From NCBI GenBank assembly GCA_030679145.1, contig JAUXTU010000036.1:22480-86479 (forward strand): DNA of 64,000 bases. The letters are read 5' to 3'. The notes under the pieces were generated by a model, which saw only the letters and a program-made list of their open reading frames with translations, searched no databases and was not told the DNA's origin. The translations under genes were made by a program, and so were the position numbers. The DNA is from Bacteroidota bacterium. GTDB taxonomy: Bacteria; Bacteroidota; Ignavibacteria; UBA10030; UBA8401. How positions within the stretch are numbered: the stretch's first letter is position 1; every line of letters begins with the position of its first letter. Of this stretch, positions 740 through 19,471 are shown piece by piece.

Positions 740-3046
740 TTACAATTCATATTCCACACCAAAGATCGGCAGAAGATTCCATTGATAGATCGTATCCTGC
801 TTGTTCTCTTTTTCATTCCAGAAATATGTTGCAACGTTCTTTCTGTTGTAGACATTCCAGGCGCTCAGATACAGAACCAGATTCGATGATTCAAAATGGA
901 ATCGTTTATCCAACCGTACATTCATTGAATGATATGCAGGATAGCGCGCGCCGTTAATGTTGTTTGCTTCAAACACGCCGCGTTTTAACTGTGCAGATTG
1001 TGCAAGATCGAACGGAGTGAACGGCGTTCCTCCGGCATAGATCCATCGTGCGCTGAATTCCCATTCTGCATTTGGTTTGTATCCTCCTTCGGCACTGACG
1101 ATGAAACGGTTATCGAAGACTCGTTTTCTCCACACATCATCGGCACCTTTGTATTCTGTTCGAAAGAATGTCGCGCTCGCAAGCCCGTAAAAATCTTCCG
1201 CTAATTTCTTTTGCAGAGTTACTTCAATTCCTCCTGAACGTGCTTTTCCGCTGTTGGATAATGCGCCGTGATTTAAAAAGAAGCCATACCGATAAAAAAC
1301 TTCATCCACTAAGAACAATGATGGATCAGCAGGATCGACGGGGAAGTCGTAATATTCTTTCATATATACTTCCACACTCAGCTTGGTATCTTCAGACAAC
1401 AAATGATCAATACCGGCAATGTAATGCACTGCGTACGGATCGTTCAGTGATTTATTTGCATTGTTCTGCGAGATTAACAACAGCGGAAGATTTTGATAAT
1501 ATACGCCTGACGACATTTTGAATGTTGTCAGTTCATCGAATTGATATGCCAGCGATGCGCGGGGCGAAACCGCAACTCTGCTGTTGATCGAAAAATAATC
1601 AACGCGCGATCCTACGGTCATTGTTAATCCACCGAACGGCTGAACGATATAATTAAAGAATCCGCCGATCTTTGATGCGGAAATATTTTTGGAAATTGAT
1701 GCCGCACTGGTGGAATCTCCGACCGCATCGCTGAATGCTCCGTAGAAATTATTATACTTATTCATCAATCGTTTAATGTCGATGCCGAATTCAACGGAAT
1801 GAGCGGCGGAGAATTTTACATGATTGATATTGCGGAGATTGACCGCCGCTTCGGTCGATCTGTTTTGCACAAGGTGAATTCCCGTATTTGTTTCGAAAAA
1901 GTCCTCGTTGAATTTCGATGAGAGATATCCAAGTGTTGTTGTGGAATATGCATTCTGACTCCACAACGCGCGCCAGACAATTCCGCCGGCACTTTGATAG
2001 ATATCTTGATTGCCGTATGCAAGCATATCATTTTCGAGCGCCGCTTTCAGATCAGGATTGTTATGATCATCGCCGTATAATCCCACGACGCTCAGTTTGT
2101 GCTTTGGAGAAAGATCATAAACGATCTTCCCTTGCACATCGCCGTAGGTTGGAGCTACCGATGTGCCGACATTGAACATCTTCATCACGAATTCCAGATA
2201 ACTTCTCCGAGCAGAAAAAACGTACGAGCCGTGCTTGCCCAACGGACCTTCTACAACGCCGCCGAATCCGGCAATGTTTAGATCCAACTGTCCGTCGAAT
2301 TCTTTTCTGTTTCCTTCGCGAAAACGAATATCCAAAATTGAGGAAAGCTTGTCGCCATACGTCGGTGAAAATCCTCCGGTGTGAAAATTCACCACGTCGA
2401 CCAGGTCAACATTCACCATACCAATCGGTCCGCCGGTTGCACCTTGCGTGGGGAAGTGGTTGATGTTCGGGATCTCGATACCGTCGATGTAGAACGCATT
2501 CTCCAGCGGACTTCCGCCGCGGACGATGAGACTGTTCGACTGGTCGTTCACTTTTGCAAGACTCGGCAGACTCATGATAATTCTGCTCACATCACCGCCC
2601 GAACCGGGCGCGCGGCGAATTTCTTCGCGGCTGAATCCGACAGAGTTCATCGACTGCACATCATTCTGCTGAAAATATCCGGCGGTAACAACCACCTGTT
2701 CCGATTCCACCGCGCTCTCGGAAAGTTCTGCTGATGCTGTTGTGATGCGCGCGGGACGAACGATCACGTCCGTTTTGCTAACGATTGAATATCCGATCAT
2801 TCTGAATTGAATGGAATAATTTCCAATAAGAACATTATTGATTGTGAATTTCCCGTCAGCATCCGTGATTGAACCGAGCGAAGTATTCACAACAATAACA
2901 TTTGCACCGATGAGAGGCGTTTGTGTTGCCTGATCGAGTGCAATCCCTTCGATCGTTCCGGTTGAAGGCTGCTGCGGGAAAAGAAAATATGAAAAGACAA
3001 AAACGGTGAAAAATGATTTGAAGAACTGTTTCATTGTATATTCCAT
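740..3046 (-). CDS. TonB-dependent receptor with carboxypeptidase-regulatory-like N-terminal domain
   Basis: GTIEGIALDQATQTPLIGANVIVVNTSLGSITDADGKFTI... followed by plug (SLPSLAKVNDQSNSLIVRGGSPLENAFYIDGIEIPNINHF) and beta-barrel. Confidence 0.9.
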   Translation of the reverse strand: MEYTMKQFFKSFFTVFVFSYFLFPQQPSTGTIEGIALDQATQTPLIGANVIVVNTSLGSITDADGKFTINNVLIGNYSIQFRMIGYSIVSKTDVIVRPARITTASAELSESAVESEQVVVTAGYFQQNDVQSMNSVGFSREEIRRAPGSGGDVSRIIMSLPSLAKVNDQSNSLIVRGGSPLENAFYIDGIEIPNINHFPTQGATGGPIGMVNVDLVDVVNFHTGGFSPTYGDKLSSILDIRFREGNRKEFDGQLDLNIAGFGGVVEGPLGKHGSYVFSARRSYLEFVMKMFNVGTSVAPTYGDVQGKIVYDLSPKHKLSVVGLYGDDHNNPDLKAALENDMLAYGNQDIYQSAGGIVWRALWSQNAYSTTTLGYLSSKFNEDFFETNTGIHLVQNRSTEAAVNLRNINHVKFSAAHSVEFGIDIKRLMNKYNNFYGAFSDAVGDSTSAASISKNISASKIGGFFNYIVQPFGGLTMTVGSRVDYFSINSRVAVSPRASLAYQFDELTTFKMSSGVYYQNLPLLLISQNNANKSLNDPYAVHYIAGIDHLLSEDTKLSVEVYMKEYYDFPVDPADPSLFLVDEVFYRYGFFLNHGALSNSGKARSGGIEVTLQKKLAEDFYGLASATFFRTEYKGADDVWRKRVFDNRFIVSAEGGYKPNAEWEFSARWIYAGGTPFTPFDLAQSAQLKRGVFEANNINGARYPAYHSMNVRLDKRFHFESSNLVLYLSAWNVYNRKNVATYFWNEKENKQDTIYQWNLLPIFGVEYEL

Positions 3047-13543: not shown

Positions 13544-14242
13544 TTATGAAATATATAGTAAATATATTCCGCCAAAGATTACCAACAAGCCGCATATCCT
13601 TTTTAGCCAAATCAGAGTTTTTGAAGAATCGCTCCAATTCAAATAACACTGTACTTTGTTTGTCAACGTTCCTGCTCCAACAATTACGGCGCAATGACCG
13701 ACGCCAAACGATAGAAGAAGAAGGACGGAAAGAAGATAATCTGTTTGTGCTGTTTGAAATACAACTCCGAGCACCGGAGCCATATATGCAAATGTGCATG
13801 GACCCAGTGCAATACCAAACAATAATCCGAGTATTAATGCAGCGGGTAATCCCTGTAACAATGTCCGTCGCAGACCGGCGGTATTCCAATCGAATTTTAG
13901 TACATCCAGCAGATATAATCCAACGATAAAAAATATTCCCGCAACAAGATAATTACCGACACTTCCGACATCACCCATCAATCTTCCCATCGAAGCAGTG
14001 ATAACGCCGATAAGCGCAATCGTGATTAATATTCCGACTGCAAAGACTAACGAGATCGTAAAGGTTCGTCGCAAGGATATTTTCCCTTGCGACGCGATAT
14101 AACCGACCACCAGGGGAATACTTGAGAGATGGCATGGCGAAAGTAGAATGCTCAACACTCCCCATCCAAATGAGGCAGCAATTGCTATCCAAAGAGAACC
14201 GGTCATTGCATCATATAATGCGGTGAAGATTGTATCAAACAT
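13544..14242 (-). CDS. cytochrome c biogenesis / thiol-disulfide CcdA (DsbD transmembrane) family protein
   Basis: GVLSILLSPCHLSSIPLVVGYI...GLLFGIALGPCTFAYMAPVLG, multi-TM. Confidence 0.85.
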   Translation of the reverse strand: MFDTIFTALYDAMTGSLWIAIAASFGWGVLSILLSPCHLSSIPLVVGYIASQGKISLRRTFTISLVFAVGILITIALIGVITASMGRLMGDVGSVGNYLVAGIFFIVGLYLLDVLKFDWNTAGLRRTLLQGLPAALILGLLFGIALGPCTFAYMAPVLGVVFQTAQTDYLLSVLLLLSFGVGHCAVIVGAGTLTNKVQCYLNWSDSSKTLIWLKRICGLLVIFGGIYLLYIS

Positions 14243-14243
14243 A

Positions 14244-14639
14244 TCAACTTCCCAGCGTTTTGGGTATCACACCACGCTGCTTGAAGATCTTGTGAATCTC
14301 TTCTTCGGGATAAAATCCTTCGTGACGAAAAAATTCTTTTCCATTTTCATCTAAAAAAACTTGTGTCGGAATTAATCGAATACCGTACTTCTTGGCGAAC
14401 GGTTTTTGTTCTTCGGTCCACACATCATAAAAAACTACTTTAACAGCATCACCGTATTTCTGTTCGATCGCTTTCATTACCGGCTGCATTTTTTTGCAAG
14501 GAATGCAATTGACCGAGCCAAGTTCGATGAATGTGATCGCTGGTTTTACATTTTGCTTTTCTTTTGTTTGTTTTGGTTGAGGAAAGAGAGTGAGTGAAAA
14601 TGTGATAAGTATAACGCTGACTAAATAAATTGATTTCAT
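14244..14639 (-). CDS. secreted thioredoxin-like protein
   Basis: Signal peptide; GSVNCIPCKKMQPVMKAIEQKYGDAVKVVFYDVWTEEQKPFAKKYGIRLIPTQVFLDENGKE. Confidence 0.85.
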   Translation of the reverse strand: MKSIYLVSVILITFSLTLFPQPKQTKEKQNVKPAITFIELGSVNCIPCKKMQPVMKAIEQKYGDAVKVVFYDVWTEEQKPFAKKYGIRLIPTQVFLDENGKEFFRHEGFYPEEEIHKIFKQRGVIPKTLGS

Positions 14640-14642
14640 ATG

Positions 14643-14882
14643 CTATCCTTCATTGATCCACGTGAGTATTTGTTCGTCTTTAGGGATATTGCCGACACTT
14701 TTTACTTTTTCGTTGATGACCAAACCGGGAGTGGAAAGTATTCCATATTTCATAATCTCCATAATATCTTCCACTTTGATAACCATTGCGGGAAGATTAT
14801 TCTTTGCAACGAGTTCTTGCACTTTTGCATTGAGTGTTTTGCATTTAGCGCAGCCTGAACCGAGTATTTTTATTGAGACCAT
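14643..14882 (-). CDS. small redox-active disulfide (MTH895-type thioredoxin-like) protein
   Basis: MVSIKILGSGCAKCKTLNAKVQELV...YGILSTPGLVINEKVKS. Confidence 0.85.
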   Translation of the reverse strand: MVSIKILGSGCAKCKTLNAKVQELVAKNNLPAMVIKVEDIMEIMKYGILSTPGLVINEKVKSVGNIPKDEQILTWINEG

Positions 14883-14896
14883 AGTGTTAGAGTTGA

Positions 14897-15910
14897 TCAG
14901 TAAAGTATATTAAAAATATAACCGACGATAATTATTCCCGAGCCGACAATTCCGACAAACGCAAAAATGAGAGGGAGCTTCAATACTTTTTTGAGGATAA
15001 TTATTTCGGGAAGGGAAAGTCCGATCACAGACATCATAAAAGCCAGCACGGTTCCGAGTGATGCACCTTTTTCAAGCAATACTTGAACAACAGGAATAAT
15101 TCCGGCAGCATTGGAATACATCGGGATGCCGATCAATACCGAAACCGGCACTGACCACCATGCAGATTTTCCCATCAGTGATGCCATAAAATTTTCAGGA
15201 ACATAACCGTGAACACCGGCGCCAACCGCAATACCAATTAAAATATAGATCCATACTTTAGCAACGATCTCCTTCACTGCTTCAATCCCCGCATTGATCC
15301 TGTCGGATACGGTAAGCTGCTCTTCTGCTATTTCTGTTGTGCCGGCTTTAATCGTGTATACCCAATCTTCAACAAACCGTTCTAATTTTAAACGACCGAT
15401 GATATAGCCTGAAATTATTGCGATCAATAATCCGGTAGACATATATAACAAAGCGGTTTTCCATCCGAAGAGTCCGAATAATAACACGAGTGCAACTTCA
15501 TTGATCATTGGTGCTGCAATCAGGAATGAAAATGTCACACCGAGCGGAACTCCCGATTCAACAAAGCCGAGAAAGAGAGGAATTGCGGAACATGAACAGA
15601 ACGGGGTGACGATCCCAAGCGTGCTTGCCATAACGTTGCCGGCAAAATGTTTTTTCCCTCCGAGCATCTTCCGTGTTCGTTCCGGGGAGAAATACGAGCG
15701 GATAATGCCGACAATAAAAACGATCAGCGTCAACAACAGGAGAACTTTGGGGACTTCATAAATAAAAAAATGAATCGCCGAAGTAAGCGGTGCTTCCTTG
15801 TCTAATTGGATCAAAGAATAGACAAGCAGATCGGTCAATCGTTCCAAATTGTTATAGAGTGCTATCCACACTGCAAATAGAATTGTTATAACAATCACTT
15901 TCTTTCTCAT
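14897..15910 (-). CDS. permease (DUF318/ArsP-like, SO_0444 family)
   Basis: GIVTPFCSCSAIPLFLGFVESGVPLGVTFSFLIAAPMINEVALVLL; repeat half VSVLIGIPMYSNAAGIIPVVQVLLEKGASLGTVLAFMMSVIGLSLPEIIILKKVL. Confidence 0.85.
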   Translation of the reverse strand: MRKKVIVITILFAVWIALYNNLERLTDLLVYSLIQLDKEAPLTSAIHFFIYEVPKVLLLLTLIVFIVGIIRSYFSPERTRKMLGGKKHFAGNVMASTLGIVTPFCSCSAIPLFLGFVESGVPLGVTFSFLIAAPMINEVALVLLFGLFGWKTALLYMSTGLLIAIISGYIIGRLKLERFVEDWVYTIKAGTTEIAEEQLTVSDRINAGIEAVKEIVAKVWIYILIGIAVGAGVHGYVPENFMASLMGKSAWWSVPVSVLIGIPMYSNAAGIIPVVQVLLEKGASLGTVLAFMMSVIGLSLPEIIILKKVLKLPLIFAFVGIVGSGIIIVGYIFNILY

Positions 15911-15919
15911 GATACCCTT

Positions 15920-16162
15920 TTATGCTGCATGACTCGTTAACAATTCTTGAATTTGCTCCACCGTCGGCATCCGTCCTTGAACGATGACTTTATTATCAAC
16001 GACAAGTCCCGGAGTACGCATAACGCCGTACGTTGCGATTTGTTGATAGTCCGTTACTTTCTCAATAGCTGCATCAATGTTTAAATTTTTCAATGCATCA
16101 ACGGTGCGCTGCTCCAGTGTTTTGCAATTCATACAGCCTGAACCTAATACTTTAATAATCAT
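15920..16162 (-). CDS. small redox-active disulfide (thioredoxin-like) protein
   Basis: MIIKVLGSGCMNCKTLEQRTVDALKNLNIDAAIEKVTDYQQIATYGVMRTPGLVVDNKVIVQG; start trimmed from 16210. Confidence 0.8.
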   Translation of the reverse strand: MIIKVLGSGCMNCKTLEQRTVDALKNLNIDAAIEKVTDYQQIATYGVMRTPGLVVDNKVIVQGRMPTVEQIQELLTSHAA

Positions 16163-16187
16163 GATAGTTATCCTTTTAATAATTGTT

Positions 16188-16505
16188 TTACGCCTCTTCC
16201 AAAACTTCAACGCCTACTTTTGCTTCCATATGAGCTACGTTTCCGGCAAGATCGAGAATGGCAAAGATACGTTTATCAGAAACTTTATAATTCACCCGTA
16301 AGCCGTCTTTCCATGAAACAACGATACCTTCCTGAACAAGAATTTTCATGTGACGGGAAAGATTTGATTGTTCGAGTTCCAATTCTGGACCAATCTCGCA
16401 ATTGCATTTTGTGCCGTTTTTCAGCAATTCTATGATCCGAATTCTATTGGGATGAGCAAGTGCGGATAAGATATTCGCTTTAAATTCTTCCTGTGTTTTT
16501 TGCAT
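16188..16505 (-). CDS. ArsR-family transcriptional regulator (1)
   Basis: ILSALAHPNRIRIIELLKNGTKCNCEIGPELELEQSNLSRHMKILVQEGIVVSWKDGLRVNYKV. Confidence 0.85.
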   Translation of the reverse strand: MQKTQEEFKANILSALAHPNRIRIIELLKNGTKCNCEIGPELELEQSNLSRHMKILVQEGIVVSWKDGLRVNYKVSDKRIFAILDLAGNVAHMEAKVGVEVLEEA

Positions 16506-16654: not shown

Positions 16655-17710
16655 TTAAATCGCTAGTTCAGTGCCAAAATATTTTTTCTTAAAGCGGAGC
16701 GCTACATTAACAAGCAATATCAACACCGGTACTTCAACTAAAGGACCGATCACTGTTGCAAACGCCGCTTGTGAATTTATTCCAAATACGGCAACAGCAA
16801 CAGCGATAGCCAATTCAAAATCGTTACTGCCTGCGGTAAACGCGGTTGTTGTTGTCTTTTCATAACTGTACCCCATTTTTTTCGCAATAAAGAATGTTAC
16901 AAAAAACATTCCTGCAAAATAAAATAAGTATGGGATCGCAACCCGAACGACATCAAGTGGAAGTTCAACGATTTTTTCACCCCTCAGCGAGAACATCACA
17001 AAAATAGTAAACAACAATGCAATCGGGGTAAGAATCGAAATCTTCGGAACGAACTTTTTTTGATACCATTCTTTGTCTTTTATTTTCACTAACGTGGCTC
17101 GCGTTATCATTCCGCCGAAGAAAGGAATACCAAGATAAATAAGTACTGTAACAGCAATTTCCCAAATAGATATTTCTACTAATGTGCCCTGAAATCCAAA
17201 TAAGGGGGGAAGTACAGTGATAAAAACGTAGGCATACACCGAATACAAAAACACTTGAAAGATTGCGTTGAAGGCGACCAATCCGGCTGCAAGTTCGGAA
17301 TCCCCCTTTGCCAAATCATTCCACACCAGTACCATCGCGATACATCGTGCCAATCCGACAAGAATTACACCAATCATCATTTCCGGTTTGTCAGGCAAAA
17401 AAATCATCGCTAAAAAGAACATCACCAACGGACCAACGATCCAATTTTGGATTAACGACAATGAGAGCAATTTTACATTTTTGAAAACAACTGGAAGCTC
17501 TTCATATTTTACTTTTGCAAGAGGCGGATACATCATTAAAATGAGACCGATAGCAATTGGAATATTAGTAGTACCGGAACTCAGTGAATCCCAGAAACCT
17601 GCAATACCGGGAAACAGAGCGCCGGCAGCAACACCAAACGCCATCACAAGAAAAATCCAGAGAGTTAAATAACGGTCAAAGAACGAAAGCTTACCAGATA
17701 TTGTACTCAT
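16655..17710 (-). CDS. acr3: ACR3-family arsenite efflux transporter
   Basis: [91 protein letters not shown]. Confidence 0.92.
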
Positions 17711-18141
17711 AGCGATTCCTTTAAAATATTTTCAGTATAGAAACGATAAAAATCTCTTTTGATTTCATCTCTGACTCTTCTAAACACCGCAATGATTTCT
17801 TCTTCTGTTCCCGTTGCATCAGCAGGATCATCGAAGCCGATATGCAGACGATGTTTAACGTTGCCGAAAAACACCGGACAGCTTTCTTTTGCATTATCGC
17901 AGACGGTGATGACATAATCAAATGATTGAGAAAGAAATTGCTCAACAGTCTTTGGATAATTCTGGCTGAGATCGATTCCAATTTTACTCATCACCTGGAT
18001 TGCTTTGGGATGAACCCGCGATGCCGCCTTTGTTCCGGCAGACAACACTTCTAATGATGGATCGAACGATTTGAGAAAACCTTCCGCCATTTGAGAACGG
18101 CAGGAATTTCCGGTGCAGAGAATAAGGATTCGTTTTTTCAT
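17707..18141 (-). CDS. arsC: arsenate reductase (LMW-phosphatase type)
   Basis: [22 protein letters not shown]...[36 protein letters not shown]; 4-bp overlap with acr3. Confidence 0.92.
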
Positions 18142-18211: not shown

Positions 18212-19021
18212 TTATGATTTATCAGCATAAACGTTGATACTGAAAATGCCGACATTATTTTTCTTCAGATCGCGTAATTGATCAAGCGAGATGAATTGAA
18301 GAAGGAGATCGTTCGGAAGATGAATTTCTCTCTCCTTTTGTACTGTGATGTTGATAAATCCTGCGTTCTTAATGATATCAAGATATTCATCCATTTGCTG
18401 TGCACCTGCAACACAGCCGGCATACATCACCGCAGCATTTTTTAATCCGGCTGGAAGTTCTCCCTTTAAGACAATGTCAGAGATTGAAAAATGTCCTCCT
18501 GGTTTTATGATGCGGAATGTTTCCACAAACGCTTTCTCTTTGTTTGGAACGAGGTTCATCACGCAATTGCTCACGACAACATCCACGGAATTGTCTTCAA
18601 CAGGCATCTGTTCAATATCACCAAACCGGAATTCAACATTATTGAATTTCAATTTCAACGCATTTGCACGCGCCTTGTTGATCATCGCTTCGGTCATATC
18701 GACACCGATCACTTTTCCGGTGTTTCCCACGATCGATCGTGCGACGAACGCGTCGTTTCCTGCTCCTGAACCGAGATCGACAACCGTATCGCCGGATTTA
18801 ATCTGAGCAAATTCTGTCGGCAGACCGCAGCCCAAGCCCAGATCGGCATCAGCAACATATCCGGGGAGTTTTGCGTAATCTTCCGCCATCACAACAAAAT
18901 CGGAAGAATTGCATCCGCACGTGCTGCCGCAGCAGGATGTTTCGTTCTGTTCTTTTGATTGCAGTGCGATCTCGCCGTATTTTTCCCTAACGAGATCCTT
19001 CAATTCCTGATCGGTGGACAT
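18212..19021 (-). CDS. arsM: arsenite S-adenosylmethyltransferase
   Basis: CCGSTCGC...YVADADLGLGCGLPTEFAQIKSGDTVVDLGSGAGNDAFVAR...VVVSNCVMNLVPNKEKAF...YAGCVAGAQ. Confidence 0.92.
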   Translation of the reverse strand: MSTDQELKDLVREKYGEIALQSKEQNETSCCGSTCGCNSSDFVVMAEDYAKLPGYVADADLGLGCGLPTEFAQIKSGDTVVDLGSGAGNDAFVARSIVGNTGKVIGVDMTEAMINKARANALKLKFNNVEFRFGDIEQMPVEDNSVDVVVSNCVMNLVPNKEKAFVETFRIIKPGGHFSISDIVLKGELPAGLKNAAVMYAGCVAGAQQMDEYLDIIKNAGFINITVQKEREIHLPNDLLLQFISLDQLRDLKKNNVGIFSINVYADKS

Positions 19022-19022
19022 A

Positions 19023-19094
19023 TTACTTTCCTCCTTTGGAAGGAGAGCAGCAATCTGTTCCGCAGCATGGTTCTTTTGTTTCGGTCGCGTTCAT
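19023..19094 (-). CDS. 23-aa Cys-rich microprotein MNATETKEPCCGTDCCSPSKGGK upstream of arsM
   Basis: ATG AAC GCG ACC GAA ACA AAA GAA CCA TGC TGC GGA ACA GAT TGC TGC TCT CCT TCC AAA GGA GGA AAG TAA; preceded by GAGAGGA SD and by the arsR-2 operator; its 3' end carries the AAAGGAGG SD of arsM. Confidence 0.6.
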   Translation of the reverse strand: MNATETKEPCCGTDCCSPSKGGK

Positions 19095-19116
19095 AACGAA
19101 GTCCTCTCTGTATAGT

Positions 19117-19132
19117 ATCGTAATATTACGAT
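19117..19132. promoter_or_regulatory. ArsR-type operator, copy 1 (microORF-arsM promoter)
   Basis: ATCGTAATATTACGAT perfect palindrome. Confidence 0.75.
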
Positions 19133-19150: not shown

Positions 19151-19471
19151 TTAACAGCACTTTTTAACGGAAACAACAAAGTTGCCAAGCATCGATTGAA
19201 TTTCAGTCCATCCTTTTACATCGATACAGTAGCAGACCGACGTTCCTTCGATCTCGCCTTTGATCAATCCGGCATTTTTTAATTCACGCAAATGCTGTGA
19301 GACCGTCGATTGTGAGAGTGGAAGTTCGTCTACGATATCACCGCATACGCAGGAATTGCTTTTGGAAAGATATTCCAAAATCGCTATGCGGGCAGGATGA
19401 CCGATTGCTTTTGCCAGTTCTGCAAGGCGATTCTGTTTTGCGGTGAATTCTTCTTTTTTTGTCGTTCCCAT
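19151..19471 (-). CDS. arsR: ArsR-family transcriptional regulator (2)
   Basis: LAKAIGHPARIAILEYLSKSNSCVCGDIVDELPLSQSTVSQHLRELKNAGLIKGEIEGTSVCYCID. Confidence 0.9.
   Translation of the reverse strand: MGTTKKEEFTAKQNRLAELAKAIGHPARIAILEYLSKSNSCVCGDIVDELPLSQSTVSQHLRELKNAGLIKGEIEGTSVCYCIDVKGWTEIQSMLGNFVVSVKKCC

Follow-up and report, generated by a model that had tools for sequence, protein, structure and literature searches.

A conserved 23-codon Cys-rich micro-ORF upstream of arsM in Ignavibacteria as a candidate detached arsenic-binding module of ArsM

Introduction

The chemistry of ArsM, the arsenite methyltransferase, runs on thiol/disulfide cascades, and vicinal Cys pairs are classical ligands of trivalent arsenic. 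To our knowledge, neither the route by which As(III) reaches ArsM nor the role of the variable Cys-rich ends of the enzyme is settled. Described systems offer two models for the delivery of a soft metal by Cys pairs. ArsD passes As(III) to ArsA through Cys12, Cys13 and Cys18 (PMC12607644). In MerA, a flexible C-terminal Cys pair brings Hg(II) to the active site, and an N-terminal Cys motif helps in some enzymes (PMC4500099).

We analyzed a stretch of 64,000 nucleotides (the window), in which a Cys-rich micro-ORF of 23 codons lies between arsR and arsM. The encoded peptide resembles ArsD in its vicinal Cys pairs and in that its putative partner is encoded in the adjacent gene (PMC12607644). However, ArsD, with 108 aa on pNRC100, far exceeds the peptide in length and serves ArsA; the peptide has no ArsD domain match in Pfam or NCBIfam, and arsA is not among the identified genes of the cluster (arsR, arsM, arsC, acr3 and the gene of an ArsP-type permease). 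The C-terminal pair of MerA and its NmerA domain offer a similar picture: attached to the enzyme, a flexible pair of Cys or a small Cys-bearing domain supplies the buried catalytic thiols with a soft metal (PMC4500099). They differ from the peptide in handling mercury for another enzyme, and NmerA is a folded domain with GMTCxxC, whereas a peptide of 23 aa is not expected to have a fold of its own. By analogy, the peptide is most likely a tiny in-trans equivalent of the C-terminal CC arm of MerA or of ArsD. The Cys motifs of ArsM itself (CCGSTCGC and a C-terminal ..CCGPDCCN) share the CCG-x-[DE]-CC pattern and are linked to the same gene, arsM, whereas the micro-ORF is a separate ORF.

The nearest annotated analogues are the halo-CC-star proteins HcsS and HcsL (NF041415), small Cys-ended proteins adjoining arsR-arsM; on Halobacterium pNRC100 they lie between arsA and arsR-arsM (2247-2794 of locus L299). 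HcsS differs in its length (62 aa), in its single terminal CC and in occurring also beside arsA/arsD. It showed no meaningful alignment with the peptide, and it scored 71.4 bits in NCBIfam (NF041415), whereas the peptide matched 0 families there. Small proteins with a terminal Cys pair may be common in ars clusters. Mycobacterial poly-Cys leaders, as far as they are described where they are cited (PMC9094748), are likewise short upstream ORFs with consecutive Cys codons before an operon; they differ in being leaderless, in acting by attenuation and in belonging to Actinobacteria, whereas here the peptide sequence, not an RNA structure, is conserved.

Results

The micro-ORF and its ars cluster

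The cluster contains the following features.

19151..19471, minus strand: arsR of the ArArsR type, with C41, C43, C80, C82 and a C-terminal CC (Cys numbering as in PMC11868830)
19485..19500, no strand: second operator copy, in front of arsR
19117..19132, no strand: putative ArsR operator ATCGTAATATTACGAT, between arsR and the micro-ORF
19102..19108, minus strand: Shine-Dalgarno (SD)-like GAGAGGA of the micro-ORF, 7 nt before its ATG
19023..19094, minus strand: micro-ORF MNATETKEPCCGTDCCSPSKGGK, ATG at 19094-19092, TAA at 19025-19023, 23 codons and stop
19030..19037, minus strand: arsM SD AAAGGAGG, within the micro-ORF, from codons AAA GGA GGA
18212..19021, minus strand: arsM, arsenite methyltransferase, 269 aa (NF008823, 350.6 bits, cut-off 263; PDB relatives 5evj and 4kw7)
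18911..18934, minus strand: N-terminal CCGSTCGC of ArsM (residues 30-37 in the ArsM sequence), the in-cis counterpart of the module
17707..18141, minus strand: LMWP/thioredoxin-type arsenate reductase (arsC-like), by family match
16655..17710, minus strand: ACR3 arsenite efflux transporter (TIGR00832, 436 bits)

The gene order is arsR, micro-ORF, arsM, arsC and acr3, followed by a second arsR with ArsP-type permease and thioredoxin-like genes. An earlier note on this DNA had described a complete short ORF with its own SD below the operator, ending one base before the arsM ATG and holding the arsM SD in its 3' end. These coordinates were confirmed: only base 19022 lies between the stop and the arsM ATG (19021), AAAGGAGG occupies 19030-19037, and the palindrome lies just upstream of the micro-ORF. 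Four of the 23 residues of the peptide are Cys, arranged in the motif CCG-x-[DE]-CC / CC-x(2-4)-CC. No Pfam or NCBIfam family matched the peptide, and a small Cys protein linked to arsM was not found in the open-access papers searched; so far as the searched libraries show, the peptide is undescribed. The ArsM encoded downstream has Cys 65, 153 and 203 at catalytic-type positions.

The operator palindrome ATCGTAATATTACGAT occurs twice, whereas 0.02 matches are expected. The footprinted operator of the repressor ArArsR from Arsenicibacter rosenii, TTTTATCGTAATATTGCGATCACAATC (PMC11868830), nearly contains this palindrome, and the ArsR and operator of the window are of the ArArsR type (operator like ATCGTAATATTGCGAT; Cys 41, 80 and 82). 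Because both the ArsR Cys residues and the operator match the ArArsR system, which is characterised and responds to As(III), we infer on good grounds that the micro-ORF is under As(III) control through the operator. The ArsR of the window ends in KKCC, and this C-terminal pair is conserved across these ArsRs, though the matching pair of ArArsR is dispensable for sensing (PMC11868830).

Conservation and selection in the family

The micro-ORF was found upstream of arsM in five genomes of the family, namely the window, two genomes of its genus (G281 and G267) and two of its family (G290 and G596). The earlier note had named a lack of conservation upstream of arsM as the outcome that would speak against it; this was checked and did not hold. 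The ORF, its Cys pairs and its SD are kept in all five genomes, with an identical spacing of 1 nt to arsM, and each micro-ORF of the relatives is preceded by an SD of the AAAGGA or AGGAGG type. A profile HMM of the micro-ORF matched the relatives at the same place with E values of 1e-11 to 1e-13; these relatives are themselves rows of the model, and the independent evidence consists of position, the excess of upstream ORFs and frame-specific selection.

The proposed test of synonymous-site bias was carried out and revealed purifying selection in the micro-ORF frame alone, with a pN/pS of 0.08 against the nearest relative compared with 2.7 and 1.3 in the other two frames. Between the window and G281, 9 nucleotide differences result in 1 amino-acid difference, whereas 6.4 are expected at random placement (0 of 20000 random draws as low). 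The pooled pN/pS across the five genomes was 0.24, and E8, P9, G12 and D14 around the Cys pairs were conserved despite codon drift. On this evidence, we consider the micro-ORF to be a genuine microprotein gene under selection and not a chance ORF. Meanwhile, arsM occurs without the micro-ORF in five other genomes of the same family (G043, G598, G599, G096 and G273); as the first four are close relatives that share the same arsM, the micro-ORF is either dispensable or redundant with the CCGSTCGC of ArsM itself.

Cys modules across ArsM genes

We surveyed 209 distinct, complete ArsM genes, mostly from Bacteroidota and from genomes that are mostly draft and metagenome-derived. An upstream CC..CC micro-ORF was present at 7, a module-bearing N-terminal extension at 15 and a C-terminal Cys tail at 56; the remaining 131 had none of these. 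The scan upstream of arsM for short Cys-pair ORFs, which the earlier note had proposed, thus recovered 7 in 208 arsM upstreams; the expectation from dinucleotide-shuffled sets was 0.05 per set, and the reverse-complement control yielded 0. Cys-containing upstream ORFs at two loci (L072 and L073) look like the end of the upstream gene and were left out of the count, and the apparent upstream ORFs at two others (L025 and L036) were artefacts of a mis-chosen TTG start. The spacing to arsM was 1 nt in six of the seven.

Two upstream micro-ORFs belong to distant families: that of L178 (MRNKKEIKKTVNNKSEPCCDSTCCGSSGNK...) lies 3 nt from arsM and that of L183 (MKNPNEPKKNVHEK...SSNCCGPTCCSSS...) lies 1 nt from it. 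With Cys held fixed, both resembled the N-terminus of their own ArsM (P<0.001 for L178 and P 0.002 for L183) and therefore look as if part of the arsM 5' end had been duplicated in tandem. In the window, the likeness of the peptide to its own ArsM N-terminus beyond Cys was not significant (P 0.15). Thus, the resemblance of CCGTDCC to the CCGSTCGC of ArsM, pointed out earlier for this lineage, extends beyond Cys in the two other families but not significantly in the window. Similar upstream Cys micro-ORFs appear to have evolved independently in these two distant families (f14 and f24).

The same module was also found fused to the enzyme. In the genus g54, it starts ArsM itself as an in-frame N-terminal fusion (MNTLEETKSKEKSCCGPDCCSDE...), and further in-frame N-terminal fusions were found in four genomes (G132, G103, G226 and G161). 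At the other end, ArsM terminates in CCG[TP]DCC(N) in G128, G369, G319 and G056, and looser ends such as CCxPGxGCC occur on many ArsMs. C-terminal CC..CC tails are common on Bacteroidota ArsM (56 of the 209, e.g., L011, L029 and L115), and no description of such tails came up in the papers that we searched. A divergent ArsM-like methyltransferase (L087) has the C-terminal end DDPCCGPDGCS. In one Ignavibacteria genome of the genus g54 (G046, locus L014), separate upstream and fused copies of the module with near-identical DNA lie about 180 bases apart (2706-2771 and 2887-3000); this double copy is possibly a snapshot of interconversion between the fused and free forms.

Module matches with E below 1e-3 occurred at ArsM genes only, and the presence of an upstream or N-terminal module changes at least nine times on a core-only tree. 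Of the ArsMs that carry a module upstream or at the N-terminus, 22 in all, none had a C-terminal tail (Fisher P 0.0014, for genes that are phylogenetically non-independent); this exclusivity is a hint only because the tree-aware independent-pairs test was without power, with too few informative pairs. Outside the phylum, the search covered plasmid records, which yielded mainly Bacteroidota, haloarchaeal and some Firmicutes ArsMs; in the three neighbourhoods examined there, arsM was not directly preceded by any annotated short CDS. At a Bacteroidales locus (L045), arsC and arsM share one open frame, a possible ArsC-ArsM fusion, with an internal stop in ArsM; this may be a sequencing error.

Leader structure and other explanations for the micro-ORF

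The earlier note had offered two roles for the peptide, namely a partner or donor of ArsM and a regulatory leader. In the latter, ribosomes that translate or stall on the Cys codons would open an SD-hiding hairpin, arsM would follow the supply of Cys-tRNA or simple coupling, and the peptide would be idle. The hairpin predicted in the window is as follows.

19018..19058, minus strand: predicted mRNA hairpin in which Cys/Ser/Pro codons from the 3' half of the micro-ORF pair with the arsM SD and part of the arsM AUG

With this hairpin, the unpaired probability of the arsM SD is 0.07, a value as low as which was reached by 0 of 300 synonymous controls. In addition, a stop one nt from the ATG and an SD inside the micro-ORF are of the coupling type, and attenuators with poly-Cys leaders are known in mycobacteria to the extent that Canestrari 2020 is cited in PMC9094748. 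However, the hairpin is absent in G281 and G290 and weak or intermediate in G267; a conserved RNA attenuator was rejected, as the SD-hiding hairpin is strong in the window only. A leader also leaves unexplained why E8, P9, G12 and D14 persist while their codons drift, and no terminator was found on the coding strand. Because the hairpin is not conserved and modules fused to the N- or C-terminus cannot be leaders, we regard an idle leader as unlikely and the weaker of the two roles. Coupling may tune arsM in the genome of the window, without explaining the conserved peptide or the fusions.

The role as an arsenic-binding partner or donor of ArsM is favored by the fusions found elsewhere, in which ArsM bears this module at one end or the other. 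A related explanation is that the Cys pairs, as resolving thiols, reduce the disulfide that methylation leaves in ArsM and are in turn recycled by thioredoxin, with no arsenic carried. The thiol/disulfide cascades of ArsM and the thioredoxin-like genes in the same ars cluster agree with this, and the ArsM-like selenoproteins of NCBIfam (NF047649 and NF041537) suggest redox-active appendages in the family, but the two vicinal pairs of CCG-x-[DE]-CC are unlike the CxxC of thioredoxin. We hold such a redox partner to be rather improbable, although it is inseparable from an arsenic-binding module on sequence alone. Four Cys in 23 residues, and the co-induction with arsM expected from the operator, would also suit a metallothionein-like peptide that sequesters As(III) or toxic methylarsenite as a cytosolic chelator, without contacting ArsM. 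That reading is very improbable in our view; the module occurs in ArsM-linked contexts only, fused or adjoining, and roughly equimolar coupling is ill suited to a bulk chelator. Upstream of the arsM ATG, the same frame continues for 23 codons without a stop (open frame of 292 aa) and fused module-ArsM forms exist elsewhere, which would agree with the micro-ORF being a functionless relic of an N-terminal extension severed by a frameshift; this, or a chance ORF, we give hardly any credence, since its own ATG and SD are kept in five genomes, selection is frame-specific, and upstream ORFs exceed the shuffled expectation (7 against 0.05). The constant 1-base spacing within the family also raised a programmed +1 frameshift to a fused ArsM, which was rejected: the codon preceding the stop is not constant (AAG, AAA or CGC) and no slippery motif is shared.

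Proposed role of the peptide

We consider it reasonably probable that the peptide is a translationally coupled, detached arsenic-binding Cys module acting with ArsM. The pattern argues that it acts as a protein, together with the enzyme, and because relatives fuse the Cys module to either enzyme end, it probably helps ArsM as a free-standing arsenic-binding peptide rather than being random sequence. Counted against this role, most of the surveyed ArsMs lack both module and tail (131 of 209).

What the sequences show is the gene with its position, conservation and selection, the type of operator and the fused forms of the module. We infer that the peptide is translated, is made along with ArsM, binds arsenic and engages in thiol exchange with the enzyme. 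The arsM transcript induced by arsenite would carry the micro-ORF as its first cistron. In the presence of arsenite, ArsR would leave the operator and the micro-ORF would be translated; arsM would be translated by coupling, which is likely here, from the SD inside the micro-ORF, such that peptide and enzyme are made together. The peptide would be a free copy of the flexible CCG-x-[DE]-CC module that is elsewhere fused at the N- or C-terminus of ArsM, and its two vicinal Cys pairs would bind trivalent arsenic as As(III) or methylarsenite. It may then exchange arsenic with the active-site thiols of ArsM or reduce them, serving the enzyme as thiolate donor, acceptor or redox arm. Fused or free, such a mobile thiol arm may load arsenic, join in reduction or hold toxic methylarsenite. 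With confidence somewhat short of even, we further suggest that this is a dedicated, coupled 23-aa metallochaperone for ArsM, of a kind that arose several times by detachment or duplication of the Cys module of the enzyme, the arm working in cis or in trans.

The same module can precede ArsM as a separate microprotein, extend its N-terminus or form its C-terminal tail; these variants make up a natural domain-swap series, which bears on whether such vicinal Cys arms serve to feed the enzyme, to reduce it or to protect it. As the micro-ORF shows, annotation overlooks ars operon genes of fewer than 30 codons.

A second ars-like block lies at 13544-16505 of the window and comprises an arsR of the CNCE type, two Thioredoxin_3 proteins, an ArsP_1 permease, a thioredoxin and a DsbD/CcdA-like protein; the permease scored 136 bits to SaoE, below the SaoE cut-off.
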